This document shows, one piece after another, positions 7,402 through 21,553 of a stretch of 64,000 nt of DNA. The notes under the pieces were generated by a model. It saw only the letters and a program-made list of their open reading frames with translations, made no database searches and had not been told where the DNA came from. Made by a program: the position numbers and the translations under genes. How positions within the stretch are numbered: the first letter of the stretch is position 1; each line of letters opens with the position of its first letter. Source of the DNA: an uncultured Salinisphaerales bacterium (GTDB taxonomy: Bacteria > Pseudomonadota > Gammaproteobacteria > Nevskiales > CAJXLF01). The stretch is from positions 124,001-188,000 of the forward strand of contig CAJXLF010000005.1 in assembly GCA_913055805.1 (NCBI GenBank). Direction: 5' to 3'.

Positions 7402-8616
7402 ATGAAAATAGCTGTTCTGACCAAGCGATTCCCAAGTGTTTCAGAGACTTTCGTAGTCGATCATGTGCGTGAGCTTGCTCGGGCAGGACATGAAGTGCAT
7501 GTATACGCCAATGAATCCGAGTTTGATGCGGCCGATCTGAATATGGCTGCAGACGGCAAGGTGGCGATTTATCTTTTGCCGGAAACGACCATTCGTCTTG
7601 TCAGGAAGTTATCTATATTTATCCGGCTGCTGCTAACAATGCCCTGGTGGCGATTGACACCCTTACTGCATCTGAAGAGTACTTCCAGGCTTTATGCCAT
7701 GATGCGGACCAGGCAGTTTCTGGAGAACGGTCATGTTTATGATCTTTACCACGGGCATTTCGCGCATGCGGGTGATGAGCTCGGGTGTCTGAAGCAGGCT
7801 GGCATCATCTCGGGGCCAGTAGTTGTATCCTTGCATGGCTATGATGTGAACCGCACTCCTGATGCCGGAGGGGCAGAGTATCATCACCTCTTCGAGCATT
7901 GTGAAAGATATCTGGTAACCACCCGTTTTATGGCCGGGCAAGCGAAAAAACTGGGTTGCGATACAGACAAAATCACGATCCTCCCCACCGGGATTCATTC
8001 ACAGAAATTCCAACCGCGTAGAGTCAGAACCGCTGCGGACTCGGCGATAGAATTGCTTACTGTGGCGCGGCTGGTTAGCCAGAAGGGCCTGGATTATGGA
8101 TTGCGTGCCGTTGCAAGGCTGCTTGGTGAAGGCTGTCGGGTCCATTACCGCATTATTGGTGAAGGCCCGCTGTTGAATGATTTGATGGCGTTGGCTACTG
8201 AACTGGAAATCGCGGATTCGGTCACATTTGACGGGGCGCAGCCTCACGCCTCTGTTGTGCAGGCGCTTCAGACAGCAGATGTTTTTCTTTTTCCGACTAT
8301 TCGTAGCGAAGAGGGTGACGAGGAAGCGCAGGGTATCGTATTGCTTGAAGCGCAGGCTTCCGGAGTGCCTGTTGTAGCAACCGATTGTGGCGGCGTGCCG
8401 GAGGTTGTGAGAACAGATGCTTCGGCAATTCTGGTGACGGAACGTGATGTGTCAGCTTTGTCGGAGGCTGTCAAAACCGTCGTGTCAGGCAATCGCTGGC
8501 AGGAGATGTCAGAGTCCGGGCCGCCCTTTATTCGGGAAAATTTCGATATTCACCGGCAGATGGAAAAAATGATCGATCTTTATGGGCAGTTGGTCTCCAA
8601 CAAGGTGAGTCCGTGA
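7402..8616 (+). CDS. Family 4 glycosyltransferase (WcaL/AmsK-like)
   Basis: This 404-residue GT-B enzyme starts with KIAVLTKRFPSVSETFV, the N-terminal signature of WcaL/AmsK-type colanic acid and amylovoran glycosyltransferases. VSLHGYDV lies near residue 142 and HGHFAH near 116. The C-terminal nucleotide-sugar domain has LTVARLVSQKGLDYGL near 218, GEGPLLNDL near 253, and the EX7E-type segment EEAQGIVLLEAQASGVP near 307. It lacks membrane helices and should work on the cytoplasmic face on undecaprenyl-linked sugars. Its TGA overlaps the GTG of the next gene by four bases (GTGA), indicating translational coupling. The sugar is unknown, though the closest named families transfer hexoses. Confidence 0.93.
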   Translation: MKIAVLTKRFPSVSETFVVDHVRELARAGHEVHVYANESEFDAADLNMAADGKVAIYLLPETTIRLVRKLSIFIRLLLTMPWWRLTPLLHLKSTSRLYAMMRTRQFLENGHVYDLYHGHFAHAGDELGCLKQAGIISGPVVVSLHGYDVNRTPDAGGAEYHHLFEHCERYLVTTRFMAGQAKKLGCDTDKITILPTGIHSQKFQPRRVRTAADSAIELLTVARLVSQKGLDYGLRAVARLLGEGCRVHYRIIGEGPLLNDLMALATELEIADSVTFDGAQPHASVVQALQTADVFLFPTIRSEEGDEEAQGIVLLEAQASGVPVVATDCGGVPEVVRTDASAILVTERDVSALSEAVKTVVSGNRWQEMSESGPPFIRENFDIHRQMEKMIDLYGQLVSNKVSP

Positions 8617-9521
8617 GGCAAGCATCCGTGCCCCGGGTATCTGTAATCATTCCCGTCTACCGTGACTGGCAGAGTCTGCAGGCGTGCCTTGATGCATTGA
8701 GGACGCAAACACTGGCGACAGGGGAATTTGAGGTCTTGATTGTTGATAATGACGAGTCCTCTCCCGGGCCTGTTCCGCAGCTGCCGAATTCACTATATAT
8801 CCACGCACCGGAAGGTTTTTCCTATGCCGCCAGAAATGCGGGTATCAGGCAGGCAAAAGCACCGGTGCTGGCCTTTACCGATGCGGACTGCGTGCCGGAT
8901 CCGGAATGGTTAGAGCAGGGGCTGCAGGCGCTGCGTGTGGAATCGGCGGATATCCTCGGGGGGCACATCGAAATGTATTCCGTCGAGGGAAGCTGGGCCG
9001 GCCGTTACGATCTGTGTTTCGGCCTTGATCAAGAGGAATTTCTGCGCAGTTTCAATGCAGTGACCACGGCAAACCTGTTCGTGAAAAGGGAAGTGGTCGA
9101 GTGCCTGGAGGGCTTTAATGCAGCTTTGCAATCAGGAGGGGATTTTGATTTCTGTTATCGTGCATCCGCTCAGGGATATCGTATTGGCTATTCGGACTTG
9201 GCAAAGATCAAACACCATACGCGGGACAGTTTTGACGAATTGATCCGAAAAACCCGGCGCATTGCGGGGGGTGTTACGGATATGTCGTTTTCAGACATCT
9301 CGGGTAAAGAGATTTTGACAACATGGCGGTACTGGCGGGCCTTCGTTTTTCCTCATTTGGGGGACTGGTGGCGTACACTGTCGGGCCGGAATGGTTCAAA
9401 GTTTGTGCCGTTTTGGCAACGCCCGGCTTTGATGCTGTTGCGTGTGTATTTTCAGTACCTCCTTGCCTGGCAAATATTGCGCGTCGCGGGGCAGTCGCAG
9501 CGCAACAAGACAGTATGGTGA
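8613..9521 (+). CDS. Family 2 glycosyltransferase
   Basis: This 302-residue GT2 protein has the GT-A layout: RVSVIIPVYRDW at the N-terminus, VLIVDNDESS near residue 45, YAARNAGIRQAK near 72, and AFTDADCVPDPEW near 89 as the DxD site. The distal part has a hydrophobic segment, ALMLLRVYFQYLLAWQIL, near the end that may anchor it to the membrane. The start is GTG 8613, which overlaps the previous stop as GTGA and sits immediately before the conserved SVIIP strand. It resembles the GT2 family of rhamnosyl- or hexosyltransferases used in polysaccharide assembly. The next gene begins seven bases after its stop. Confidence 0.92.
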   Translation: MRQASVPRVSVIIPVYRDWQSLQACLDALRTQTLATGEFEVLIVDNDESSPGPVPQLPNSLYIHAPEGFSYAARNAGIRQAKAPVLAFTDADCVPDPEWLEQGLQALRVESADILGGHIEMYSVEGSWAGRYDLCFGLDQEEFLRSFNAVTTANLFVKREVVECLEGFNAALQSGGDFDFCYRASAQGYRIGYSDLAKIKHHTRDSFDELIRKTRRIAGGVTDMSFSDISGKEILTTWRYWRAFVFPHLGDWWRTLSGRNGSKFVPFWQRPALMLLRVYFQYLLAWQILRVAGQSQRNKTVW

Positions 9522-9528
9522 ACTCTGC

Positions 9529-10503
9529 ATGACGGAAGCACAGTCAACTGGCAGACCTTCTGTATCGGTAGTGATTCCGACGCGAAACAGACCAGAGCAT
9601 GTGATTGGAGCGGCAGAAAGCGTTTTGTCGCAGACTTTTCCCGTGACGGAGCTTTTACTGGTCGATGATGCATCTGATGATCCGAACGTGGTGAAGACAC
9701 TGGAGAAACTGGCTGTCCAGGATCAGCGTGTCAGAGTCATCAGCCGGGAAACTCAGGGCGGTGTCAGCGCGGCACGAAATACCGGGGTTCGACAGGCATG
9801 TGGTGACTACCTGGCCTTTCTGGATGATGATGACCGTTGGCATGCAGAGAAGCTGGCGGCACAGATCGATCTGCTGGATGAACTCGGCAATGACTGCCTG
9901 TTTGTGGCCTGCGGCCTGGAGCGCACTTCTTTTGATGGTCAGAAGATCTATTTTAATTGGCCACATGTAGCAGGGGAGCGCTGGATTTCATATGAACTTT
10001 TTGTGCAAAGTCTTTGTGCCTTTGTGCAGACGGTGCTGGTTCATCGCTCTCTCCTGACTGAGGACGGTTTGTTCAGTGAAGACATTCCAGTGATGGAAGA
10101 CTTCGAATGGTCATTACGCCTGTTGCAGAAAACCCGTGGTGCCCTGGTTGACCGGCCGTTGGTGTTTTCGCAGGAGCTAATGGACGGGCTGACTGTGAAA
10201 TATCACCTCAGAGCAGAAGCCATACAGCGTATTCTTGAGCGACACGCCGGGTTGCTGTCTGCATACCCGCGAGCGCTTTCGACGCTGTACTACGAACAGG
10301 CGAAGTCTTTGACTATGACAGGTAAGCGTCTGCCGGCATTGAAAAAACTGTGGTCGGCATGGCGGAACAACCCCACGGACCCTAGAATATACGGCATGCT
10401 GTTGCCCGCAATGCTGGGCCATAAGGCCTTCATGTTCGCTCGTGCGATTTATCGGTTATTTGTGAAAAACCCGATCAAGCATATCAACGGCACTGTTGGG
10501 TAA
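9529..10503 (+). CDS. Family 2 glycosyltransferase
   Basis: This 324-residue GT2 enzyme has SVSVVIPTRNRPEHV at residues 11-25, LLVDDASDD near 45, GGVSAARNTG near 78 and FLDDDDRW near 97, with EDFEWSLRL near 190 as the probable base-bearing segment. It is strikingly similar in order and spacing to residues 309-560 of the fusion enzyme at 439-2238, so the two are paralogues. The frame is open back to 9442, but ATG 9529 places the start just before the conserved fold and just after the preceding stop. The last residues extend into the start region of the membrane protein downstream, so the cluster remains tightly packed here. Confidence 0.92.
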   Translation: MTEAQSTGRPSVSVVIPTRNRPEHVIGAAESVLSQTFPVTELLLVDDASDDPNVVKTLEKLAVQDQRVRVISRETQGGVSAARNTGVRQACGDYLAFLDDDDRWHAEKLAAQIDLLDELGNDCLFVACGLERTSFDGQKIYFNWPHVAGERWISYELFVQSLCAFVQTVLVHRSLLTEDGLFSEDIPVMEDFEWSLRLLQKTRGALVDRPLVFSQELMDGLTVKYHLRAEAIQRILERHAGLLSAYPRALSTLYYEQAKSLTMTGKRLPALKKLWSAWRNNPTDPRIYGMLLPAMLGHKAFMFARAIYRLFVKNPIKHINGTVG

Positions 10504-10507
10504 GTTA

Positions 10508-11794
10508 ATGCGCAATCTCAGTCACAGCCTGCCCAGACGCCCCATGGATGCGCCGGAGTCCAGACTCTTTCTGTCTGAATTCCTGTTGACCCTGCCGATC
10601 TTGCTTGCAGTGGTGCTGAGTTCCATGAATGAGTTGCGTCTGTTGGCGCATATGACACCGGCCGATCTGGCACTTTTGTTTGCTGTGATGTCGGTGGTAA
10701 TCAGGGCGCTGATCACAGGGAAAACTGTCCAGGTACCTGTGGTTTTCTTTTTACCGGGTCTACTCATGTTGCTGCCAGCGCTTTTGCAGGTTGCCTTGTA
10801 TCAGAACGTTGCCAGCTTTGTAGGTCTGCTGTTTTATCTAGTTGCGTCCACTGCTGTACCGCTGGTCATATACTGGTCGGCTCAGGGGAACTCCAGGCTT
10901 TTGCTGCTGCTGGCCATTGGGTGGTTGGCTGGTCATCTTTTCAGCATCATGGTCGGGATCACCACTCATCACGGAATCTGGTTTTTCGGGTTACATGACG
11001 AGTCGGCACTTAATGCCTGGGGCGGTTACCGTATTTCGGGGTTATCGACCCACCCGAATATGCTGGCAACTTTTACCACGATCATGCTGCCATTTCTGGT
11101 GGTCATGGCTTTCGCTCTCAAACGTTGGCTGTTCAGGTTTGTCGCAGTGTTGGTGGCCGTGATTTTCTTCTATGCCCTGGACTTGACCGGATCAAGGGCG
11201 GGCATGGCGGCCGTACTTGTGGCTGTACCTGTGGTGTTATGGATATGTGTGGGGTTCACGGGCAAGGGTAAGCGCATTCCCTATCTCATAATTATCGTAG
11301 GCATGCTGGGCCTGAGCTGGATTGCCACGGATATGCTCAGCGGTAAATATGAATCAGCCTCGGCCATAGAAAGGATACTCGGCGGCGGGGATAGCGAAAG
11401 ATCCGATTCAGAGCGCAAGAGTATAAGAAAGGCGACCTTTGAAAGAATTGACAAGGCTCCGGTTCTGGGCAGTGGGTACCAGGATCTGCGCCAGGCGCAT
11501 AATTTTTTCCTCCAGTTCCTTCAGTGTGGCGGCGCCCTGGGTTTGCTGGGCTTTGTCATCTACATCGGGTTGCTGGCTTATTGGTCGGCAGGTGCTTATG
11601 CGATGAGCCTTTCCCACTCAGTGACTATCCAGATGGCAGTCATTGCAGTTTCAGCCGGTTTGTTGAGTTGGTTAATGATGGGCATGTTCCAGAATGCCGT
11701 TACCGAGCGGCCCATCTACGTGGCAGTGGGTATTTTGCTGACACTTTATTATGGCTTGAAGAATGGGGATTTTACTCCGGACCGTCAGGCCTGA
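10508..11794 (+). CDS. O-antigen polymerase/ligase-like membrane protein (Wzy/WaaL type), first copy
   Basis: This 428-residue protein has about ten to twelve hydrophobic segments and a larger periplasmic loop late in the sequence, the plan of Wzy polymerases and WaaL ligases. RISGLSTHPNMLATF near residue 178, DLTGSRAGMAAVL near 225, and AHNFFLQFLQCGGALGLLGF near 330 match the conserved Wzy_C pattern, in which the loop His/Asn and Arg residues are functional. ATG 10508 is preferred to a TTG at 10496; both follow closely on the previous stop. It would join lipid-linked repeat units or transfer chain in the periplasm. A second protein of this class lies at 19231-20616; sequence alone does not say which one is the polymerase. 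Confidence 0.88.
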   Translation: MRNLSHSLPRRPMDAPESRLFLSEFLLTLPILLAVVLSSMNELRLLAHMTPADLALLFAVMSVVIRALITGKTVQVPVVFFLPGLLMLLPALLQVALYQNVASFVGLLFYLVASTAVPLVIYWSAQGNSRLLLLLAIGWLAGHLFSIMVGITTHHGIWFFGLHDESALNAWGGYRISGLSTHPNMLATFTTIMLPFLVVMAFALKRWLFRFVAVLVAVIFFYALDLTGSRAGMAAVLVAVPVVLWICVGFTGKGKRIPYLIIIVGMLGLSWIATDMLSGKYESASAIERILGGGDSERSDSERKSIRKATFERIDKAPVLGSGYQDLRQAHNFFLQFLQCGGALGLLGFVIYIGLLAYWSAGAYAMSLSHSVTIQMAVIAVSAGLLSWLMMGMFQNAVTERPIYVAVGILLTLYYGLKNGDFTPDRQA

Positions 11795-11807
11795 CCTCTG
11801 AGCAACG

Positions 11808-13037
11808 ATGCGCATCATTCTGGCTAATGACTATGCTTATCCTAACGGTGGTGCGAGCCAGGTAGCCTTGTCTCAGGCCGCTGATCTGGTCAAGAGAGGG
11901 CATGAAGTCGTTCTGTTTGCCGGAATGCTCTCTGCCGATGATCCCGGAACTCCGGGAATGATCCGCCATCCTGAACTTGGATTGCCCGTTTATATAACCG
12001 GCCAATGGGATCTTCGCGGAAACCCGAGCAAGATTTCGGCCTTCGCTCAGGGTCTGTGGAACAGGGATATCCGCTTCGCGCTCAAGAAAGTAATTGCGAG
12101 CATGTCCGGGCCACCGGATGTCCTGTTACTGCATACATGGGTGAAAACGCTCTCCCCGAGCATATTTCATGCTGCGGCGGCGGAAGCGATCCCTGTTGTC
12201 GTAATGCTGCATGACTATTTCATCGGCTGCCCGAATGGGGCTTATCAGGACTTCGTACAGGGTGAGCATTGTTCGCGCAAACCCCTCTCCCTGAGCTGTG
12301 TGGTGGCTAATTGTGATCGTACCTCGCGCCTGGAAAAATACTGGCGTGTGGCGCGGCAGTTTATTACCCGCGACTTTGCACGGGTCATGAGCAGGATGGA
12401 TGCGGTGATTTACGTCTCTGAGTATCAAGCGAGCATTATCAGGCCCTGGCTACCCGCTCATCTTCCACAGTTTGTCCTGCCGAATCGTGTTACTGATCCG
12501 GGTGATGAACGGAGGGTCGATGCATCCGGCAATCGTTTATTTGTCTATTTGGGCCGCCTTGCCAAGGACAAGGGTGTGGCAGAACTGGCTAAGGCCGCAA
12601 GAGATGCCGATGTTCCGCTTCTTTACATCGGCGATGGAGAGGAGCGCGTCACTATCAAGCGCATCTATCCACAAGCTGAAATTGCCGGTTGGAAAAGTAG
12701 AGAAGAAATATATGAATTATTGCGTGACGCCCGTGCCCTGGTGGCGCCCAGCCTGTGGCATGAAACCTTTGGGCTGTCTGTTTACGAGGCTGCTTCACTG
12801 GGTGTTCCGGCCGTAATACCGCAGGACTGCGCCATGAAAGATTTTGTAATTCACGGTGAAAATGGTATTCAATATGCAACACAAGATGCGTTAAAAGAAG
12901 CTTTACTAGAGCTGAAATGGGATGATGCTCTGGTAGCACGGCTCGGTCGTGAAGCGCGCAACTCCTTCAATAAATTTAAAAAAACGAACGAAAGCTATTA
13001 TTTGGAATTGGAGAGAGTGTTAGAACTGGCAGGTTGA
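11808..13037 (+). CDS. Family 4 glycosyltransferase
   Basis: This 409-residue GT-B enzyme begins RIILANDYAYPNGGASQVALSQ; the Gly-rich acceptor-domain loop is typical of GT4. LLHTW and MLHDYFIGCPNG lie near residues 105-140, followed by a Cys-containing segment CSRKPLSLSCVVANCDR near 157. The donor-binding half has FVYLGRLAKDKGVAEL near 244, YIGDGEER near 272 and APSLWHETFGLSVYEAASLGVP near 311, which contains the EX7E pair. Base composition falls sharply in patches near the 3' end. The gene starts 13 bases after the polymerase-like gene and its stop overlaps an in-frame TTG of the next frame. The sugar donor is unknown. Confidence 0.93.
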   Translation: MRIILANDYAYPNGGASQVALSQAADLVKRGHEVVLFAGMLSADDPGTPGMIRHPELGLPVYITGQWDLRGNPSKISAFAQGLWNRDIRFALKKVIASMSGPPDVLLLHTWVKTLSPSIFHAAAAEAIPVVVMLHDYFIGCPNGAYQDFVQGEHCSRKPLSLSCVVANCDRTSRLEKYWRVARQFITRDFARVMSRMDAVIYVSEYQASIIRPWLPAHLPQFVLPNRVTDPGDERRVDASGNRLFVYLGRLAKDKGVAELAKAARDADVPLLYIGDGEERVTIKRIYPQAEIAGWKSREEIYELLRDARALVAPSLWHETFGLSVYEAASLGVPAVIPQDCAMKDFVIHGENGIQYATQDALKEALLELKWDDALVARLGREARNSFNKFKKTNESYYLELERVLELAG

Positions 13038-13058
13038 TTGCTTTGGAGGCAGACAGGG

Positions 13059-14495
13059 ATGTATCAAAGACGCGGACTCATCCGCAGAAACAGCCACTAC
13101 CTGGTCGCTGCGGTGGTGTTGCTTGATACATCAGTCGTTTTTTTCAGCGCCTATGTATCGTGCCTGACAACCAATTTTTACCATACCGGTCGTCTTGAGT
13201 ATGGCTGGCCACAACACTTTCAGACCGCGGCGCTACTCGGCGCAGTTATAGCGCCTTTACTCTTCTCCAATCTGGGCATGTACCGTGATTTACGCGGCAG
13301 TACCCTCCTGCAGGAGTTTTTGCGCCTGTTTAGCGGATGGTCGATTATGGCCGTCGGGCTGATTGTTCTGGCCGCTTTGCTGAAAATAACTGCGGATTAT
13401 TCCCGCCTCTGGTTTGTGCTGTGGTTCGGTTCAAGTCTGTTCCTGCATTTCCTGTTGCGTTTTCTGATTATTTCCACGCTCTGGCGGATTCGTCAGACGG
13501 GGGCAGATATCAAAAGCGTGTTTCTGATCGGGGGTGGGGATTGTGCAAGCAGGGTAGTGCGGGCCCTGCATGAGCATCCACAAACCGGTTATCGAATTGC
13601 AGGTTATTTTGCCGCCAGGCCGATGAGCAGTCCGGACACTCTTTCTTTACGCTATCTGGGTCCTGTGCAGGAAATCTCCAGCACGCTGGATGCTTCAGCA
13701 AACGCTTCAGATGAGGTGTGGGTTGCCTTGTCACCAGAGGAAAGCGAGGCGCACAAGGTCGCCATGGAACAACTGAAAAACATTGTGATTGATGTGCGTC
13801 TGATTCCTCATCTGTATCAGTACCGTATGCTGAATGCTTCGTTCGTGGAGGTTGCGGGTTTGCCGGTGGTAAATATCAGCCGTAGCCCTATTGTAGGCTT
13901 TAACCGCGTCCTTAAGAGGCTGGAGGATGTATCGGTGGCAAGTGTTGCAATGCTGCTCTGTGCCCCAGTCATGTTGCTGATCAGTATCGCGATCAAACTC
14001 ACCAGCAGGGGGCCGATTTTATATATGCAGAGCCGGCATGGCCTTAGTGGGGAAGAGTTCACGGTTTATAAGTTCAGGACGCTGTATCACAGCACAGAGG
14101 ATGATGAGCAGGTCGCCCTTGTCAGGGGGCGTGATGATCCTCGAATTACTCCATTGGGCAAGATTTTGCGCCGTACCAGTCTTGACGAGTTGCCACAGCT
14201 CCTGAACGTGCTGCAGGGCAACATGTCAATTGTTGGGCCGCGACCTTATAAAGTAACAATGAATGATGAGTACCGCCCCGTGGTCGAAAGCTATGTTCGG
14301 CGGCATAAGGTCAAACCCGGGATTACAGGATGGGCCCAGGTCAATGGCCTGCGCGGCGAACTGCTCAGTGTGGACGAGATGACAAGCCGTATTGAACATG
14401 ATCTCTACTACATCGAAAATTGGTCGATATGGCTTGATATGCAGATCATCATCATGACTGTCTTTAGCGGCTTTTCCAGTCCGCGGGCTTATTAG
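13059..14495 (+). CDS. Undecaprenyl-phosphate sugar phosphotransferase (WcaJ/WbaP family), priming enzyme
   Basis: This 478-residue polyprenyl glycosylphosphotransferase catalyses the first membrane step: it moves a sugar-1-phosphate, often glucose or galactose, from a UDP-sugar to undecaprenyl phosphate. Four N-terminal membrane segments span residues 12-150, then a Rossmann-like domain begins at [16 protein letters not shown] near 150, then a fifth hydrophobic helix near 300. The catalytic C-terminal domain has [13 protein letters not shown] near 322, [23 protein letters not shown] near 370 and [13 protein letters not shown] 13059 is chosen over TTG 13038 because GGAGG sits nine bases before it. 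It precedes the export genes and is the committed step for this locus. Confidence 0.95.
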
Positions 14496-14508
14496 TATGA
14501 CGGGTGGG

Positions 14509-14563: not shown

Positions 14564-15778
14564 GTGAGTTCTGTAACGAATATCGCATGGATAGCGAGAT
14601 ATGCCGGCGTATCGGCAATGCTGTCAATTCTGGTGTCTACTCCCGGGTATGCCGATGAGGGTCGTGCCGCAGGTGGAGTGAACTATTCCGGTAGCCTGAA
14701 ATTAAGCGCCGGACATATCGATAACATGTATTACAGCGGCGATGGTGAGGAAGTCGAATCAGACGTCTGGTTGCTGGCGCCGCGGCTGGGTGTGTCCCTT
14801 GCCCGCGGGACCGGGCGTTATTCCCTGGACTATTATGGCGAGGTCGGTGAGTTCGATATCAGCTCGGAAGATGACTATTTCGACCATACGATTGAGGCCA
14901 AGGCCGATATAAGGCCTTTAACCCGACACAGTTTCAATATTTCCCTGAAGGCTGAGGATCAACACGATGAATACGGGTTCAACCGTACTCTGGGTGATCC
15001 CGTTATCGCCGACCGGGAATTGGATCAGTACCGGCAGGGTACCTTCTTTTTGAAGTACAACTACGGAAGTGAAACAGGTCGTCTGCAGCCCTATCTTGCA
15101 CTGCGCGCATTGGACAAGAACTACTACACAAACGAAGACGATACGCAGTTTCTCGATCATCAGTCACTCGGTGGTTCGGCCGGGCTGATCTATCGTTGGC
15201 GTCCGAAAGTGCATTTCCTTGGTCAGGTCCTGGTTGGCCAGATCGAGTACGACGAGACCATACCCGGTCTGCCCAGTTTCGATGGTGATTTTACCCAATA
15301 CCTGGTCGGTGGGCAGTGGGAAGCGACGGCGAAGACCACGGGCCGTATCCTGGTGGGCTATTTTTCCCGTGAATTCGATGATGTCGACCGGGTTGAACTG
15401 GACGGCGCCAGCTGGGAAGTGGAGTTGGGCTGGACGCCAAAAAGTTATTCGCGCGTGTTTTTCCGTTCCGGCCAGTCCGTAAAAGAACAGATTCTCCAGG
15501 GCGAAAATTCCATCAATACCGAGTTCTATGCGCTTGGTTGGCGGCATAACTGGACGCAGCGATTTTATACTGAATTTGAAGTCGAGCAGTTTGACTACGA
15601 ATTTGCGGGTATTGGACGTGATGACGACAGCCTGAGGTTCGAAGCTGCGCTCGGCTATCAGTTCTACGAAAGATACAAGGTCCGGCTGGCGTTCGACAGT
15701 CTTGACTATGATTCCAGTATTCCTGCAGTACCTTCCGAGCGCAACAAGATATTTCTTTCCATAGAAGCATCGATTTAA
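14564..15778 (+). CDS. Outer-membrane beta-barrel protein of the polysaccharide export module
   Basis: This 404-residue protein starts with a signal peptide (hydrophobic core AGVSAMLSILVSTPGYA, likely cut before DEG). The rest has alternating hydrophobic/aromatic strands with charged turns and many Tyr, Phe and Asp residues, as in beta-barrel porin 2 (BBP2/EpsL-like) proteins of exopolysaccharide clusters. GTG 14564 is preferred over GTG 14504 because GAGGAG lies about ten bases before it and the signal peptide then begins at the N-terminus. The C-terminus SIEASI lacks the terminal Phe common in barrels. It sits directly before the OPX gene, four bases apart, which suggests it provides or lines the outer-membrane exit for the polymer. 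The fold call is by pattern only. Confidence 0.75.
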   Translation: MSSVTNIAWIARYAGVSAMLSILVSTPGYADEGRAAGGVNYSGSLKLSAGHIDNMYYSGDGEEVESDVWLLAPRLGVSLARGTGRYSLDYYGEVGEFDISSEDDYFDHTIEAKADIRPLTRHSFNISLKAEDQHDEYGFNRTLGDPVIADRELDQYRQGTFFLKYNYGSETGRLQPYLALRALDKNYYTNEDDTQFLDHQSLGGSAGLIYRWRPKVHFLGQVLVGQIEYDETIPGLPSFDGDFTQYLVGGQWEATAKTTGRILVGYFSREFDDVDRVELDGASWEVELGWTPKSYSRVFFRSGQSVKEQILQGENSINTEFYALGWRHNWTQRFYTEFEVEQFDYEFAGIGRDDDSLRFEAALGYQFYERYKVRLAFDSLDYDSSIPAVPSERNKIFLSIEASI

Positions 15779-15782
15779 CTTA

Positions 15783-16340
15783 ATGATCCGGATATCGAAT
15801 GCGCAGGGACTGCGCAGATTCATCTGCCTTATCTGTTTAGTAATCGCGCCAGCGGGCTGGGCTGATAATGAGCTTGTCGCCAAAGACTACCTTATTGGGG
15901 TAGGCGACCTTGTTGAAATCAAGGTTCACGGCGAAGACGATCTGACAGTGCAGGCCAGAATCGAGGAGCGGGGCACCGTGGATTTCCCGCTTCTCGGAGA
16001 AATGCGAGTTGCGGGTCTTACCGCGGAGCAGGTTTCCACAAGACTGGAAGATGGCCTCAGGGGAGATTATCTGATTGAACCTGATGTGCAGGTGATAGTC
16101 AGGGAATATCGGCCGTTCTATGTTCACGGCTTTGTGTTCAGGCCCGGTAGTTATCCCTATCGTCCAGGGCTGAATATCCGGACTGCGACAACTATTGCGG
16201 GTGGCTTAACTGAAAGGGCCTCCGAGGGGAAGATTTATATCGTGCGTGAGGGGGATCTTAAGCACGAAAGGGAGAAGGCAACACTGGAAACTCCTGTGTA
16301 TCCAGGTGACACCATCATTGTAGAGGAAGGCTTGTTTTGA
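15783..16340 (+). CDS. Polysaccharide export protein, short Wza/OPX family
   Basis: This 185-residue secreted protein has a signal peptide (FICLICLVIAPAGWA, cut before DNE) and no lipobox Cys. Residues 32-110 are the Poly_export domain: DYLIGVGDLVEIKVHGEDDL and RGTVDFPLLGEMRVAGLTAEQ. Residues 115-185 form a SLBB-like beta-grasp domain with YVHGFVFRPGSYPYRPGLN. It lacks the long C-terminal helix region by which Wza crosses the outer membrane, so it is a short OPX that would form only the periplasmic ring. A separate outer-membrane pore is then needed, and the beta-barrel gene just upstream is the obvious candidate. Its stop overlaps the next TTG start (TTGA). Confidence 0.93.
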   Translation: MIRISNAQGLRRFICLICLVIAPAGWADNELVAKDYLIGVGDLVEIKVHGEDDLTVQARIEERGTVDFPLLGEMRVAGLTAEQVSTRLEDGLRGDYLIEPDVQVIVREYRPFYVHGFVFRPGSYPYRPGLNIRTATTIAGGLTERASEGKIYIVREGDLKHEREKATLETPVYPGDTIIVEEGLF

Positions 16341-18538
16341 GCGGCGACCAACCTTTTCCCACCAACTACCAGGACCCGGGCGAAAAACGTAACCCCGAAC
16401 TGGTTGACCTTTTTCAGCTGATCGGTGTTTTCTGGGAAGCCAAATGGCACATCATGGGACTGACTTTTGTCGGCATCATGCTTGTCAGCCTGTACCTGAT
16501 CAAGGCTGATTCCATCTACCGGGCTACGGTGCGGATGATTATCGAGCCAGACGCCTACAATGTCCTGGAAATTGAAAAGCTCTATAACCGTGAGCAGGCA
16601 AGCTACCTCTATTTCATGACTGAGGCGCAGATTCTTCAGTCCAGGGAGATGGCAGCTCGTGTGGTGAATCGGCTGGATCTACTGGACAACGAAATTTTCT
16701 ATGAGCCGCCCAAGGAAGATAAAAAGCGGCGCATCGATGTCTATCTTGACGAGTTCCGCACATTGCTTGGCAGTGCGCCGGAGCCGGAAATTGAAAGAAC
16801 GCCACTGCAGCAGGCCGTCGATACTTTTCTTGAGGCTATCAGTGTTGAATTCGTACCGAGCACGAATCTGATGGATTTGCATGTGGATCTCGAGGATCCC
16901 GTGCTGGCGGCAGAAATCGCCAATGTCCTGTCTGACGAGTATCTGCGTTACGGTCTGGAAGAGCAGCTGAAACTCTCAAGTGAGGCTTCAGACTGGCTGG
17001 ATCAGCGTTTGCAGGAGGCCCGAGGTGATTTGCGCGAATCAGAGAGTGCGCTCTTGCAGTTTTATGATCAGGAGGAGCTTGTCAGCGTAAAAGCTGCGAG
17101 GGGAATCCTGGAAAGTGAACTGGCCGACAATGCGCATCGCTATCGAGAAGCCGTGCGCAAGAAGGCCGAACTGGAAAACGTCTACCGCCTGATCGTCAAG
17201 GCAGGCGGAGACTGGGAACTGCTGCAGGGTGTGCCCCGGGTTCAAGATGAACCCCTGGTTATCCAGACCAAAACCAGTTTTCTCAAGGCCCGTGAACTGG
17301 TCAGCCAGCTTTCTGCGCGCTATGGGCCCAAGCATCCGCGCATGATAACCGCACAGGCGCAACTGGATGAAGCAAGAGATGCCTACAAGAAACAGTTGGT
17401 GATCGCGGCTGAGGGTATACGTTCTGATTATGAAATAGCCAGCGAAACGGCATCAGCACTGCAATCAATTACTGATAAGTCCAGATCCCAGATCAAATCA
17501 CTGGATCGAAATCAGGCCGAGCTCGAGTCTCTTGAGCGTGATGTAGAGGCCAATCGCGAGTTATATCAGACGCTTTTCTCACGCATGAAAGAAACAGGCG
17601 TAGCAGACAAGCTGGATTTCAAGACCGCCCGGGTGATTGATGAAGCAACGCCTCCGGTGAAGCCGATAAAACCCAATGCGGCGCTGGTTCTCATGATGGG
17701 ATCCATCGGCGGCTTTATCTTTGGCGTTCTGCTGGCCCTATTGAGATTCCTGTTGAACAACACGATCCTGGACCCGGAAGACCTGGAACGTCTGAGCGGC
17801 CGGCCGTTACTGAGTGTATTGCCTTACGAACGTTCTGGCGTGGGTCATCCTGGCCGCATGGCGAAAATGGAAGTTGAGCACAGTAACACTGCATTTTCCG
17901 AAGGCATCAGGAACATCCGCACCAGCATACTTCTGGCGGATGATGCCAAGAAGAACAAGAAGGTCATGATTACCTCTTCTGTACCTTCGGAAGGCAAGAC
18001 CAGTGTGGCGATCAATCTGGCGATCGCCATGGGCAAGATGGAGAAGGTTCTGCTGGTGGAAACAGACCTGCGCCGGCCCAGTATCACCAAATGTCTCAAT
18101 ATCGTCACTCAGGGAAATGGTATTTTCACCCTGATGGCGCAGAAAGCGCAGCTTTCGGAATGTATTACCCGTTATGAGGAGGGGGGGATTGATGTGTTGC
18201 CTGCGGGTAGGGGCGGTCACAACCCTGCGGAACTGATTGCTTCGCTTCGATTCAGGCACCTGGTGGATATTCTCGAATCACAGTACGACCGCATCATTTT
18301 CGACTCTGCGCCTTGTCAGGCCGTCAGCGACCCTCTCATGCTTTCCAGAGTCAGTGACGCGGTCATATTCCTGGTCAGGGCGGACGATACCAAAACAGAT
18401 CTCGTACTCGACTCGATCAAGAAGATCAGAATGGCGCAGGCCAATCTTCTCGGTACGGTGCTGAATCAGTACGTGCCCAAGCGCGGCCAGGATTACCGGT
18501 ACCAGTATTACCGGGAGTACTACAGCGCAGCGACCTGA
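16337..18538 (+). CDS. Wzc-type polysaccharide co-polymerase and tyrosine autokinase
   Basis: This 733-residue inner-membrane protein controls chain length and export. It has the Wzz domain with its first membrane segment near residues 35-55, a long coiled-coil periplasmic region (about 190-440), a second membrane segment near 450-475, and a cytoplasmic BY-kinase domain. The Walker A-type TSSVPSEGKTS is near 548, Walker A' LLVETDLRRP near 574 (Glu where Asp is usual), and Walker B IIFDSAP near 653. The C-terminus carries a tyrosine cluster (YRYQYYREYY), the autophosphorylation tail that regulates oligomer assembly. It starts at TTG 16337, overlapping the OPX stop. Its TGA overlaps the next ATG by one base. 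Confidence 0.95.
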   Translation: MSGDQPFPTNYQDPGEKRNPELVDLFQLIGVFWEAKWHIMGLTFVGIMLVSLYLIKADSIYRATVRMIIEPDAYNVLEIEKLYNREQASYLYFMTEAQILQSREMAARVVNRLDLLDNEIFYEPPKEDKKRRIDVYLDEFRTLLGSAPEPEIERTPLQQAVDTFLEAISVEFVPSTNLMDLHVDLEDPVLAAEIANVLSDEYLRYGLEEQLKLSSEASDWLDQRLQEARGDLRESESALLQFYDQEELVSVKAARGILESELADNAHRYREAVRKKAELENVYRLIVKAGGDWELLQGVPRVQDEPLVIQTKTSFLKARELVSQLSARYGPKHPRMITAQAQLDEARDAYKKQLVIAAEGIRSDYEIASETASALQSITDKSRSQIKSLDRNQAELESLERDVEANRELYQTLFSRMKETGVADKLDFKTARVIDEATPPVKPIKPNAALVLMMGSIGGFIFGVLLALLRFLLNNTILDPEDLERLSGRPLLSVLPYERSGVGHPGRMAKMEVEHSNTAFSEGIRNIRTSILLADDAKKNKKVMITSSVPSEGKTSVAINLAIAMGKMEKVLLVETDLRRPSITKCLNIVTQGNGIFTLMAQKAQLSECITRYEEGGIDVLPAGRGGHNPAELIASLRFRHLVDILESQYDRIIFDSAPCQAVSDPLMLSRVSDAVIFLVRADDTKTDLVLDSIKKIRMAQANLLGTVLNQYVPKRGQDYRYQYYREYYSAAT

Positions 18539-19227
18539 TGGCCTGGGTCGGTCGCTTCGTTTTAGCTTTTGCCGTTGCGGCACTCTTTGGCGCACTGGCA
18601 TTTCAGAACTGGCAAAACCTCGATGCTGAGCGACATTATCTGAAGGCCGGTCGTGCCCTGATCGCCGGCAATAATCATGTTGCCCGGGACCATGCCGAGC
18701 AAGCTGTGCTCGGGAACAATAAGAATGCTGATTATTGGGGCAGGCTGGCGGAGGCCGAATGGCGACTCGAACGCTATCGCATGGCGCTTTTTGCGCTGGA
18801 GAGAGCAACGAAGGTAAATCCCGAGTGGCCAACTTACTGGGGACATCTTGCATTCCGGCGTGCCTTGCTGGGGTTGGGCGTTGGTGAGGCCTGGGACAGG
18901 GCGTTCCGGAGCGGGCGCACCTTGCCCAGCGTGCAATTGAGTCTCGCGCTGGCCGCTGTGATCGACAGCAGTGAACAAGAAGGGGAAGAAGCACTGATTC
19001 GTGAAGTCTGGCAGGGAAACCTTGCCAGACAGTTCCTGATTGTTGTCTCTCGATTTGGTCTCGACACCAGAGTTTGCACAGCTTATCCGGGCCTTATGGA
19101 ACTCACACTGGATTACTGCACCAAGGCACGCGCTTTCCGCCAGATATGCGCCCGGGCCGACGCTTCCGAGAAGGCCCGGGAGGTATGCCGGGCGGGTATG
19201 GAATTCATCTACGGCACGGGTAACTGA
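18538..19227 (+). CDS. Membrane-anchored TPR-like protein of unknown role in the polysaccharide cluster
   Basis: This 229-residue protein begins with a single hydrophobic segment (residues 5-23, FVLAFAVAALFGALAF) that is probably an N-terminal anchor leaving the rest in the periplasm. Residues 30-115 contain helix pairs in the TPR pattern: AERHYLKAGRALIAGNNHVA, AEAEWRLERYRMALFALERATKVNPEWP. The C-terminal part has five Cys residues (near 180-225) that could form disulphides. I do not recognise a named family. Its position between the co-polymerase/kinase and a polymerase/ligase, with TGATG coupling to the former, suggests a scaffold for the assembly or export complex. That function is inference from context only. 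Confidence 0.8.
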   Translation: MAWVGRFVLAFAVAALFGALAFQNWQNLDAERHYLKAGRALIAGNNHVARDHAEQAVLGNNKNADYWGRLAEAEWRLERYRMALFALERATKVNPEWPTYWGHLAFRRALLGLGVGEAWDRAFRSGRTLPSVQLSLALAAVIDSSEQEGEEALIREVWQGNLARQFLIVVSRFGLDTRVCTAYPGLMELTLDYCTKARAFRQICARADASEKAREVCRAGMEFIYGTGN

Positions 19228-19230
19228 ACT

Positions 19231-20616
19231 ATGACGGATTCAGTGCGCAAATCACAGATACTGGAGCGGCTTTTATATGGTCTGCTTCTTATAGGTATTT
19301 TCTGGGCGCCTTTACCCTTTGGCAGCAATACTCCCTGGGCCGAGAGCTTGCTGGGTATTTATTTCACAGGTCTTTGCTGTGCATTCCTTGTTTTTGTGTC
19401 TTTGGGATGGGCCCGTTTCGCCAGTTGGAATGGGCGGGTCTGGGTATTCCTTCTGATCTATCTGCTCTGGGCGCTATGGGTCTCGGTGCCATTGCTGGTA
19501 CACAAGGGTTACATTGATGCGCCTGCTCTGAATGCAGTGGATTATGCCGCCACTCGAAGTGCCTGGTTACTCACTCTGACCTATTTGGCAGCGATGCTGC
19601 TGGTGCTGGGCCTGGTGTCCAGTTCCAGAAGAGTGCGCGGTATTCTCTGGGTCATTGTGATCGGCGGTGTGTTGCAGGCAGTGTACGGGGTTTATATGGT
19701 GACAACCGGCACGGAGTACAGCTTTTTCCGTCCAAAGCAGGCTTATTTCGGCGTCGCCACGGGAACATTCGTTAACCGGAATCACTTCGCCGGCTATCTG
19801 GAACTCAGCCTTGCAGCTGCCTCTGGCCTGGTATTGCCTACCCTTACCACTTATATGCCGGTGAACTGGCGTCGGCGGTTACTGTCGTTTCTGAACTTTT
19901 TCTATGGCCAGAAAGTTTATGTGCGCATGCTCATGATATTGATGGTCATAGGACTTCTTTTATCGCAATCCCGCATGGGTAATACAGCTTTCGTTGCCGC
20001 ACTGCTAACTGCGGCTATTGTGTATCTTTTCGCACGGCGTATGCGGCCTTCGGGTCTGGTTCTGGTCCTGATTGCGAGTGTGCTGATCGTTGATATTTTC
20101 CTGATAGGCCAGTGGTATGGTCTGGAAAAAGTGGCCGAGCGTATTGAACAGACGCGTTTTGAAGCTGAAGCCCGTACCTATCTGACTGCCGAGGTTATGG
20201 ATACTTGGGAGCATCACTCTCCCTATGGAGTCGGGCTGGGCGGATTTACTACAGTATTTCAGCACCATAGGCAGTTACCATCCCCACGCTTCTGGGACCA
20301 TGCGCATAATGACTATTTGCAGTTCCTCATCGAGACCGGATGGCCAGGTGTGGCGTTTCTTGGGGTACTGGTGCTGTACTCGGCTTTTCATGCGTTCAGG
20401 GTGCTCGTGACAAGAAGACGATCCCATAATATGGCCATTGGTTTTGCTGCGATTATGGCCATGGTGAGTATTGGCTTGCACAGTCTGGTTGATTTTAATT
20501 TGCAGATTCCGGCCAATGCGCTGACTCTGCTGGTGCTCATGACCGCTGCCATGGCAGTAAAAGTGAGAAAAAACATACATTTGTCAAAAAACAGGACACC
20601 TCGGGAAACGATGTGA
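19231..20616 (+). CDS. O-antigen ligase/polymerase family membrane protein, second copy
   Basis: This 461-residue protein has about eleven membrane segments and the Wzy_C/WaaL signature. FVNRNHFAGYLELSL near residue 178 is the highly conserved Arg-Asn-His segment of O-antigen ligase-family proteins, SQSRMGNTAFVAALL near 245 is typical of the following helix, and WDHAHNDYLQFLIETGWPGV near 350 contains the periplasmic-loop His thought to be catalytic. It starts three bases after the TPR gene. The RNHFAG form occurs in WaaL ligases and in Wzy enzymes of exopolysaccharide loci; with no lipid A-core genes nearby, a polymerase role is more likely here. It differs greatly from the first copy at 10508-11794. 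Confidence 0.92.
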   Translation: MTDSVRKSQILERLLYGLLLIGIFWAPLPFGSNTPWAESLLGIYFTGLCCAFLVFVSLGWARFASWNGRVWVFLLIYLLWALWVSVPLLVHKGYIDAPALNAVDYAATRSAWLLTLTYLAAMLLVLGLVSSSRRVRGILWVIVIGGVLQAVYGVYMVTTGTEYSFFRPKQAYFGVATGTFVNRNHFAGYLELSLAAASGLVLPTLTTYMPVNWRRRLLSFLNFFYGQKVYVRMLMILMVIGLLLSQSRMGNTAFVAALLTAAIVYLFARRMRPSGLVLVLIASVLIVDIFLIGQWYGLEKVAERIEQTRFEAEARTYLTAEVMDTWEHHSPYGVGLGGFTTVFQHHRQLPSPRFWDHAHNDYLQFLIETGWPGVAFLGVLVLYSAFHAFRVLVTRRRSHNMAIGFAAIMAMVSIGLHSLVDFNLQIPANALTLLVLMTAAMAVKVRKNIHLSKNRTPRETM

Positions 20617-20651: not shown

Positions 20652-21455
20652 ATGGAGCAGATGATAAGGAAATTAGCTCTGGCAGCGGCGTTATTCATGG
20701 CAAGTGGTTATGCTGCTGCCTACGCACAGGATGCGGCGGGCTATACATTACACAAGCGCGGGCATGCTGAGGTTCAGCGTAATGCCCAGGCTATCGGTGT
20801 TAGTGAGGGCGATCCTATCGTTACAGGTGACAGATTGGTCACGCTTTTCGATGGTTACCTGGAAGCACTTCTTGCGGATGAATCTGCAATGGTGATGAGG
20901 CCTTCGTCCGAGCTTTCTGTCCTGGCAAACAATTATTCACCAGAATCACAAAAAGGTGACATTCGCCTGGCCTTGAGCAAGGGAGGCGTACGCATAGTTT
21001 CCGGGTCGGCAAGTCACTCCGGGCAAAGCCGATTTGTGATTGAAACGAGTCAGGGTGCAGTGAGTCCGCAGGGTACGGATTTCATCAGTTTCATCTGTGC
21101 CGGGGATTGCGCTGCCATTGATGAATCGATGGCCGATGGTTTGTATGTGAGTGTCGCTGAAGGGGCGGTGCAGCTGGTTAACAGCGCCGGTTCCTTGTCG
21201 GTGCCTGCGGGCAGTGTTGCTTTTGCCGCGAATGATCAAACGGCGCCGGCGATAGTCAATATCAATCTCGCGGCTCTTGAAGGTGAATATGACTTCACGT
21301 TTGGAGGATTCGCCTCGGGTGTGGAAGTGTATCCTGAGTTGACCAACGGAATACCTAACCGACCCATTAATCCGCCCGGACCACCTAACAACCCACCTCC
21401 CAACAATCCGCCGCCGGTGATTCCGCCGCCGGATCCACCTGCAAGTCCATCCTGA
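20652..21455 (+). CDS. Secreted FecR-domain protein with proline-rich C-terminus
   Basis: This 267-residue protein has a signal peptide (LALAAALFMASGYAAAYA, cut before QDA) and then a FecR-like domain from about residue 50 to 160: GDPIVTGDRLVTLFDGYLEALLADES, a run of alternating beta strands, and SRFVIETSQGAVSPQGTDF. The C-terminal 30 residues are almost all Pro and Asn with little else (NPPGPPNNPPP type), a flexible tail. It has no membrane helix, so it is not a sigma-factor regulator of the usual FecR kind, and no sigma gene is next to it. Secreted FecR proteins occur in exopolysaccharide loci, but the role is unknown. ATG 20652 follows GGCAGGAG; an in-frame ATG lies nine bases further in. 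Confidence 0.85.
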   Translation: MEQMIRKLALAAALFMASGYAAAYAQDAAGYTLHKRGHAEVQRNAQAIGVSEGDPIVTGDRLVTLFDGYLEALLADESAMVMRPSSELSVLANNYSPESQKGDIRLALSKGGVRIVSGSASHSGQSRFVIETSQGAVSPQGTDFISFICAGDCAAIDESMADGLYVSVAEGAVQLVNSAGSLSVPAGSVAFAANDQTAPAIVNINLAALEGEYDFTFGGFASGVEVYPELTNGIPNRPINPPGPPNNPPPNNPPPVIPPPDPPASPS

Positions 21456-21476: not shown

Positions 21477-21553
21477 TGGTCGGGGTGAGAGGATTCGAAC
21501 CTCCGGCCCCTGCCTCCCGAAGACAGTGCTCTACCAGGCTGAGCTACACCCCG
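21477..21553 (-). tRNA. tRNA-Pro (anticodon CGG)
   Basis: Read on the minus strand, the 77 bases fold into a full cloverleaf: acceptor CGGGGTG pairing with CACCCCG, D arm with AGCCTGGTAGA, anticodon stem CTGTC/GGCAG around loop TTCGGGA (anticodon CGG), and T arm with GGTTCGAATCC. Discriminator A and an encoded 3' CCA are present. The 5' end is two bases from the ispB stop, so the tRNA is probably processed from the ispB transcript. The 3' end faces the FecR gene 21 bases away, with no clear terminator between. Confidence 0.97.

Follow-up and report, generated by a model that had tools for sequence, protein, structure and literature searches.

Organization of the exopolysaccharide cluster

The analysed DNA, a stretch of 64,000 nucleotides from an uncultured Salinisphaerales bacterium (hereafter, the window), holds an exopolysaccharide gene cluster on the plus strand, in which glycosyltransferase genes begin at position 7402. 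Glycosyltransferases of the Pfam GT1/GT2 families are encoded at 7402, 8613, 9442, and 11808 (7402..13037), and among them lies the first of two genes for Wzy_C family membrane proteins (10496..11794; PF04932, E 8.7e-11). The initiating enzyme, an undecaprenyl-phosphate glucose phosphotransferase of the WcaJ type (13038..14495; TIGR03023, 480.8 bits against a cut-off of 410.75), is followed by a predicted outer membrane beta-barrel protein (14564..15778), a short OPX protein (15783..16340), and a 733-aa Wzc-like polysaccharide co-polymerase (PCP) fused to a tyrosine autokinase (16337..18538; Wzz, GNVR, and AAA_31 domains; TIGR01007, 119.9 bits against a cut-off of 108.05). Further downstream on the same strand are genes for a TPR-like protein of 229 aa, whose TPR matches are all sub-threshold (18538..19227), for the second membrane protein of the Wzy_C/O-antigen ligase-polymerase family (19231..20616; PF04932, E 1.6e-23), which is the probable polymerase and has a relative downstream of the PCP in many related genomes, and for a secreted FecR-domain protein with a proline-rich tail (20652..21455; PF04773, E 1.4e-8), where the cluster ends. 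A minus-strand tRNA-Pro gene (21477-21553) lies beyond the latter, and elsewhere in the window, at 436-2238, a single ORF combines glycosyltransferases of families 8 and 2. Searches with PF01943 and PF13440 detected no Wzx-type flippase on the contig of the window, all matches to these families in the genome being on contigs C4 and C6; the flippase step may depend on a gene located elsewhere or on a protein that escapes these two families.

Predicted structures of the barrel and OPX proteins

The 14564 ORF encodes a secreted protein of 404 aa from a GTG start with a GGAG-type ribosome site immediately 5′ of it; a start at an alternative GTG in the same frame, at 14504, would lengthen it by 20 aa. 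Residues 27-401 match PF10082 (BBP2_2, putative beta-barrel porin 2; E 1.7e-22), and Wzi is absent from the Pfam matches of this protein. An AlphaFold model built from the window protein and 11 relatives (12 sequences in all) has 18 strands, each 11 to 21 residues long (pLDDT 82.0, pTM 0.78), with a low-confidence signal region at residues 1-35. No solved structure was related to the protein by sequence at E values up to 1. By structure, AlgE entries head the VIA-align 2 list (Z 21.0, rmsd 4.3, 305 residues aligned), with the 18-strand substrate-specific Occ porins about tied (Z about 19-20) and level with AlgE in Foldseek. AlgE is an exopolysaccharide porin; since the Occ porins match about equally well, the fold indicates an 18-strand barrel and not its cargo. 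The model thus supports the assignment of the 14564 protein as an 18-strand outer membrane barrel, a VpsM/Wzp-like candidate for the outer membrane pore, while the fold alone does not prove what it carries.

The OPX ORF starts with an ATG four bases after the barrel stop codon and overlaps the kinase ORF by four bases. Its product, a D1D2 (class-3) OPX protein of 185 aa, carries a Poly_export domain (PF02563, residues 33-106, E 1.5e-20) and an SLBB domain (residues 112-155, E 9.1e-8); no Wza_C match was found in Pfam, and the chain stops after the second domain with the residues EEGLF. The N terminus is a hydrophobic Sec signal that, judged by eye, ends at AGWA and is followed by DN. Inspection by eye also revealed no canonical lipobox, as Ile, and not Gly, Ala, or Ser, precedes each early Cys; among 13 aligned OPX relatives, a lipobox-like Cys is found in some and missing in others. 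The AlphaFold model (13 sequences, pLDDT 87.1) consists of D1 and one SLBB/D2 domain and closes with a strand at residues 177-182 followed by G-L-F, without a C-terminal helix. Among solved structures, Foldseek gives its best E-value to 9n9a, which is the class-3 OPX protein WzaB of Myxococcus xanthus, with Wza entries next; 9n9a also ranks first by sequence (E 3.3e-18).

These results bear out an earlier sequence-only reading, which had described a 185-residue OPX protein lacking both a lipobox and the C-terminal region of Wza, placed right after a secreted barrel-like protein, and had proposed structure prediction of the individual proteins as a check. The same reading had named two findings that would speak against a two-part channel, namely, a 14564 protein not predicted as a barrel and a full-length Wza gene in the locus. 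Neither was observed: 18 strands are predicted, and a whole-genome Poly_export search returned two genes, of which the second lies outside the locus on contig C2 (position 50942) and encodes a protein of 569 aa with Poly_export and several SLBB domains.

Conservation of the barrel-OPX gene pair

A set of 62 OPX loci was read in detail, comprising the window, 39 order-level loci, four plasmid loci, and 18 loci from a scan of genome contigs. A barrel relative was located directly upstream of the OPX gene on the same strand in 27 of the 62 loci (24 without three contigs that had been fetched twice), a proportion that is not an unbiased rate, as the order-level loci were chosen partly for a known BBP2_2 neighbour. 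In all but one of these 27 loci (26/27), the gene immediately after the OPX gene encodes a PCP of 690 aa or more. Across 85 genomes of the order, 41 BBP2_2 matches were identified, and the 13 strongest all directly adjoin a Poly_export match; the other 28 are weaker and mostly partial, and several of these are situated kilobases from an OPX gene in the same cluster. Within the genome-contig scan, the barrel gene lies directly upstream in ten of the 18 loci and is divergent in one, two loci are remote matches in longer proteins, and five loci from Granulosicoccaceae/Chromatiales with D1D2D2 OPX proteins (L090 and L092-L095) have no barrel gene in flanks of about 6 kb (2.4 kb upstream for L092). 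The divergent case, from an Erythrobacter-labelled bin (L087, 4350-6444), has its barrel gene upstream of the OPX gene in the opposite orientation and not in the same operon.

The adjacency of barrel and OPX genes is not due to chance, and the functional pairing is backed by the retention of the barrel-OPX-PCP order in other gammaproteobacteria. A Wzc-like kinase gene follows the barrel and OPX genes in Vibrio, Pseudoalteromonas, Solimonas, Nevskiaceae, and Spongiibacteraceae, and the full order PGT-barrel-OPX-PCP was read in Vibrio furnissii, V. cincinnatiensis, V. hannami, Pseudoalteromonas, Nevskiaceae, and Stenotrophobium, the Vibrio loci being L076, L077, L086, L088, L089, and L091. The compact succession of WcaJ, barrel, short OPX, and Wzc-like kinase is an arrangement common to the window, Vibrio, Pseudoalteromonas, and others. 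Public annotation of Pseudoalteromonas sp. THAF3 and of an Escherichia coli plasmid likewise lists a phosphotransferase, an outer membrane beta-barrel protein, and a polysaccharide export protein. On the E. coli plasmid pKTa005_2 (L078), the WcaJ, barrel, and OPX genes are followed by a PCP gene cut short to a 359-aa ORF, with an IS26 gene just 3′ of it.

The expectation that a barrel gene always stands beside a short OPX gene was upheld only in part: it fails for the five D1D2D2 loci without a barrel in their flanks and for other short-OPX types, in which the barrel gene is kilobases away within the same cluster. Such types pair with other barrels: two short OPX genes in XrtA-type loci (L035 and L037) have a gene for a TIGR03016 outer membrane protein, scoring above the cut-off, three genes on. 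PF10082 also occurs in many alphaproteobacterial-looking proteins that have none of the OPX matches listed beside them.

Relation to known export systems

In Vibrio cholerae, also a gammaproteobacterium, the barrel gene lies beside that of the short OPX protein (VpsM/VpsN), and the window shares this arrangement; the order PGT-barrel-OPX-PCP was read in relatives of V. cholerae within Vibrio. The sequence identity of the window barrel to its relatives in Vibrio is low, at 20-24%.

In PMC9601211 (Schwabe et al. 2022), 453 OPX/barrel couples from 10 phyla are reported, VpsN/VpsM of V. cholerae being named, and genetic and pulldown evidence is published for EpsX/EpsY. The couples are defined by an OPX protein with a Poly_export (PES) motif and at most 280 aa and by a barrel of at least 16 strands encoded within five genes, mutual binding and stabilization of the two proteins being a further trait of the system. 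PSORTb and PRED-TMBB2 were used there for the outer membrane location of the barrel, for which the window protein offers a signal sequence, judged by eye, and the barrel model. The window OPX protein has the PF02563 domain, a length of 185 aa, and no C-terminal helix in its model, the barrel of 18 strands is encoded by the adjacent gene, and the pair is surrounded by genes for WcaJ, the Wzc-like kinase, Wzy_C proteins, and glycosyltransferases; it agrees with all of the defining criteria of PMC9601211 that were tested. The C-terminal, outer membrane-spanning Wza_C helix that defines class 1 OPX proteins (Wza) is absent from the window protein. The pair is therefore an ordinary addition to a known two-part system, which it confirms in another gammaproteobacterial order. 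The suggestion of the sequence-only reading that the pair may be a gammaproteobacterial version of a barrel/short-OPX channel is supported, but its occurrence in gammaproteobacteria is not new, given that VpsN/VpsM are already included in PMC9601211.

Class-3 OPX proteins and Wzp barrels are described in PMC9603273, which reports relatives of the Myxococcus barrels only from myxobacteria. The M. xanthus systems EpsX/EpsY and WzpX, WzpS, and WzpB with WzaX, WzaS, and WzaB resemble the window pair in having an 18-strand barrel adjoining a D1D2 OPX protein, with AlgE as a close structural match of the barrel and with WzaB (9n9a) as the best PDB match of the window OPX model. A difference is that PMC9601211 gives the majority of their D1D2 OPX proteins as predicted lipoproteins, whereas inspection by eye showed no lipobox in the window protein. 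Compared with Wza of E. coli, the D1 and D2 domains align with the window OPX protein, which lacks D3 and the outer membrane-spanning C-terminal helix D4.

Proposed export mechanism and alternative explanations

The domain content, predicted folds, and gene order, together with the conservation of that order, make it highly likely that the barrel and OPX genes encode a composite D1D2-OPX/beta-barrel translocon, like VpsN/VpsM (EpsY/EpsX, WzaX/WzpX), that serves a Wzy-type exopolysaccharide pathway; the barrel and the short OPX protein very probably export a sugar polymer from the cell jointly. In the proposed pathway, a repeat unit would be started by WcaJ, lengthened by the glycosyltransferases of the cluster, and polymerized in the periplasm by a Wzy-type enzyme, which we infer to be the 19231 protein. 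The Wzc-like PCP would pass the chain to a ring formed by the OPX protein, and this ring, having no outer membrane helix of its own, would dock beneath the 18-strand barrel by direct contact, so that the polymer would leave through the barrel as the actual outer membrane pore. Points that weigh against this reading are the near tie of AlgE and Occ porins as structural matches, the unlengthened residue spacing of the PCP, the PF10082 proteins that have no OPX match listed beside them, and the lack of a Wzx-type match on the contig.

Assigning the exit to the barrel competes with an explanation in which this protein is an accessory surface component, such as a Wzi-like holdfast or a polymer-modifying porin, and the polymer leaves the cell otherwise. 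Barrels of the Wzi type frequently have their genes close to those of OPX proteins (Table 1 of PMC9603273), and the predicted fold cannot separate an exit pore from other 18-strand porins. However, the OPX protein has no outer membrane-spanning part, the contig encodes no other OPX protein, the barrel-OPX adjacency is tight and conserved, and the barrel has no Wzi among its Pfam matches, all of which leave an accessory role improbable. Even less probable is a Wza-like pore formed by the short OPX protein alone, with the barrel as a mere genomic neighbour: homology to D1-D2 of Wza speaks for such a pore, but the chain ends at residue 185 without a C-terminal helix, and 24 distinct loci have a barrel gene as neighbour.

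Membership in an exosortase (PEP-CTERM/XrtA or XrtB) export locus was also considered, as the best NCBIfam matches of the pair are EpsE, XrtA export protein, and EpsL. These matches all fall far below their cut-offs (TIGR03027 on the window OPX protein, 73.4 bits against 180). XrtA-type loci such as L035 and L037 resemble the window in combining a short OPX protein with a barrel, the TIGR03016 outer membrane protein, in the same cluster, and differ from it in barrel family, gene order, and exosortase. With no exosortase (PF09721) match in the whole genome, the assembly of which is about 96% complete, this assignment was rejected as having a negligible probability.

Transmembrane spacing of the partner PCP

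A PCP with an extended periplasmic part has been proposed for D1D2 OPX proteins, although it is not strictly defining (PMC9601211). By hydropathy, the two transmembrane segments of the window PCP are 411 residues apart. The median spacing was 416 residues for the barrel-adjacent loci (n=23) and 418 for those with full-length Wza (n=17; Mann-Whitney p 0.44). Three loci with a misassigned first segment (L080, L110, and L117) were included in this comparison and removed in a second one, which gave medians of 416 (n=22) and 419 (n=15) with p 0.18 and left the conclusion unchanged. Excluded from the PCP data were the duplicate contigs L081-L083 (of L043, L046, and L055), L078 with its broken PCP, L026, which repeats part of L111, L050 and L070, where the PCP was far off or in a spurious frame, and the second of the PCPs in L103.

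The transmembrane spacing of the PCP is thus no longer here than beside full-length Wza, while the arrangement of its helices could differ; in the group compared, no added residues compensate for the missing OPX domain. A longer PCP making up for a short OPX protein is accordingly not seen in residue spacing, although a residue count does not equal height. Unlengthened residue spacing in the partner PCP misfits the simplest form of the published idea on how short OPX proteins bridge the periplasm.

A terminal aromatic residue in OPX proteins without a C-terminal helix

The C terminus of the window OPX protein, encoded at 16332-16340, was compared with those of the OPX proteins of L002-L177. 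Once identical ends were collapsed, 146 distinct proteins remained; in 112 the chain ends directly behind the last SLBB strand, and in 34 it continues. Of the 112, 16, with a DD-type and not a GD sequence before the last strand, were sorted by reading their ends. Phe or Trp is the exact last residue in 106 of the 112 distinct helix-less proteins versus two of the 34 others, counts that are not independent events, as the sequences are kin. For comparison, Phe or Trp is the last residue in 4.4% of 1786 other ORFs of 250 aa or longer, which were called mechanically and include some spurious ones.

VVVP is the end of four of the 112 helix-less proteins. One of them, L123, still has a TIGR03016-like outer membrane protein, scoring below the cut-off, nearby, so that the presence of a barrel does not strictly require the aromatic residue. 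The notion of a terminal aromatic as a prerequisite for barrel pairing was not upheld, given the existence of such VVVP-ending proteins. It is a tentative and rather doubtful proposal that this terminal residue (Phe or, in certain lineages, Trp) would take the place of the Wza helix as a conserved docking end, by which the outer membrane-facing SLBB domain would hold on to the barrel or to the outer membrane on its inner face; alternatively, the residue may merely close the SLBB fold. No statement on a terminal phenylalanine of OPX proteins was found in the available parts of PMC9603273, PMC9601211, and PMC11845990, which is no proof of its absence from print. The near-invariant terminal aromatic residue, which occurs in both D1D2 and D1D2D2 OPX proteins, is a useful by-product of the comparison.
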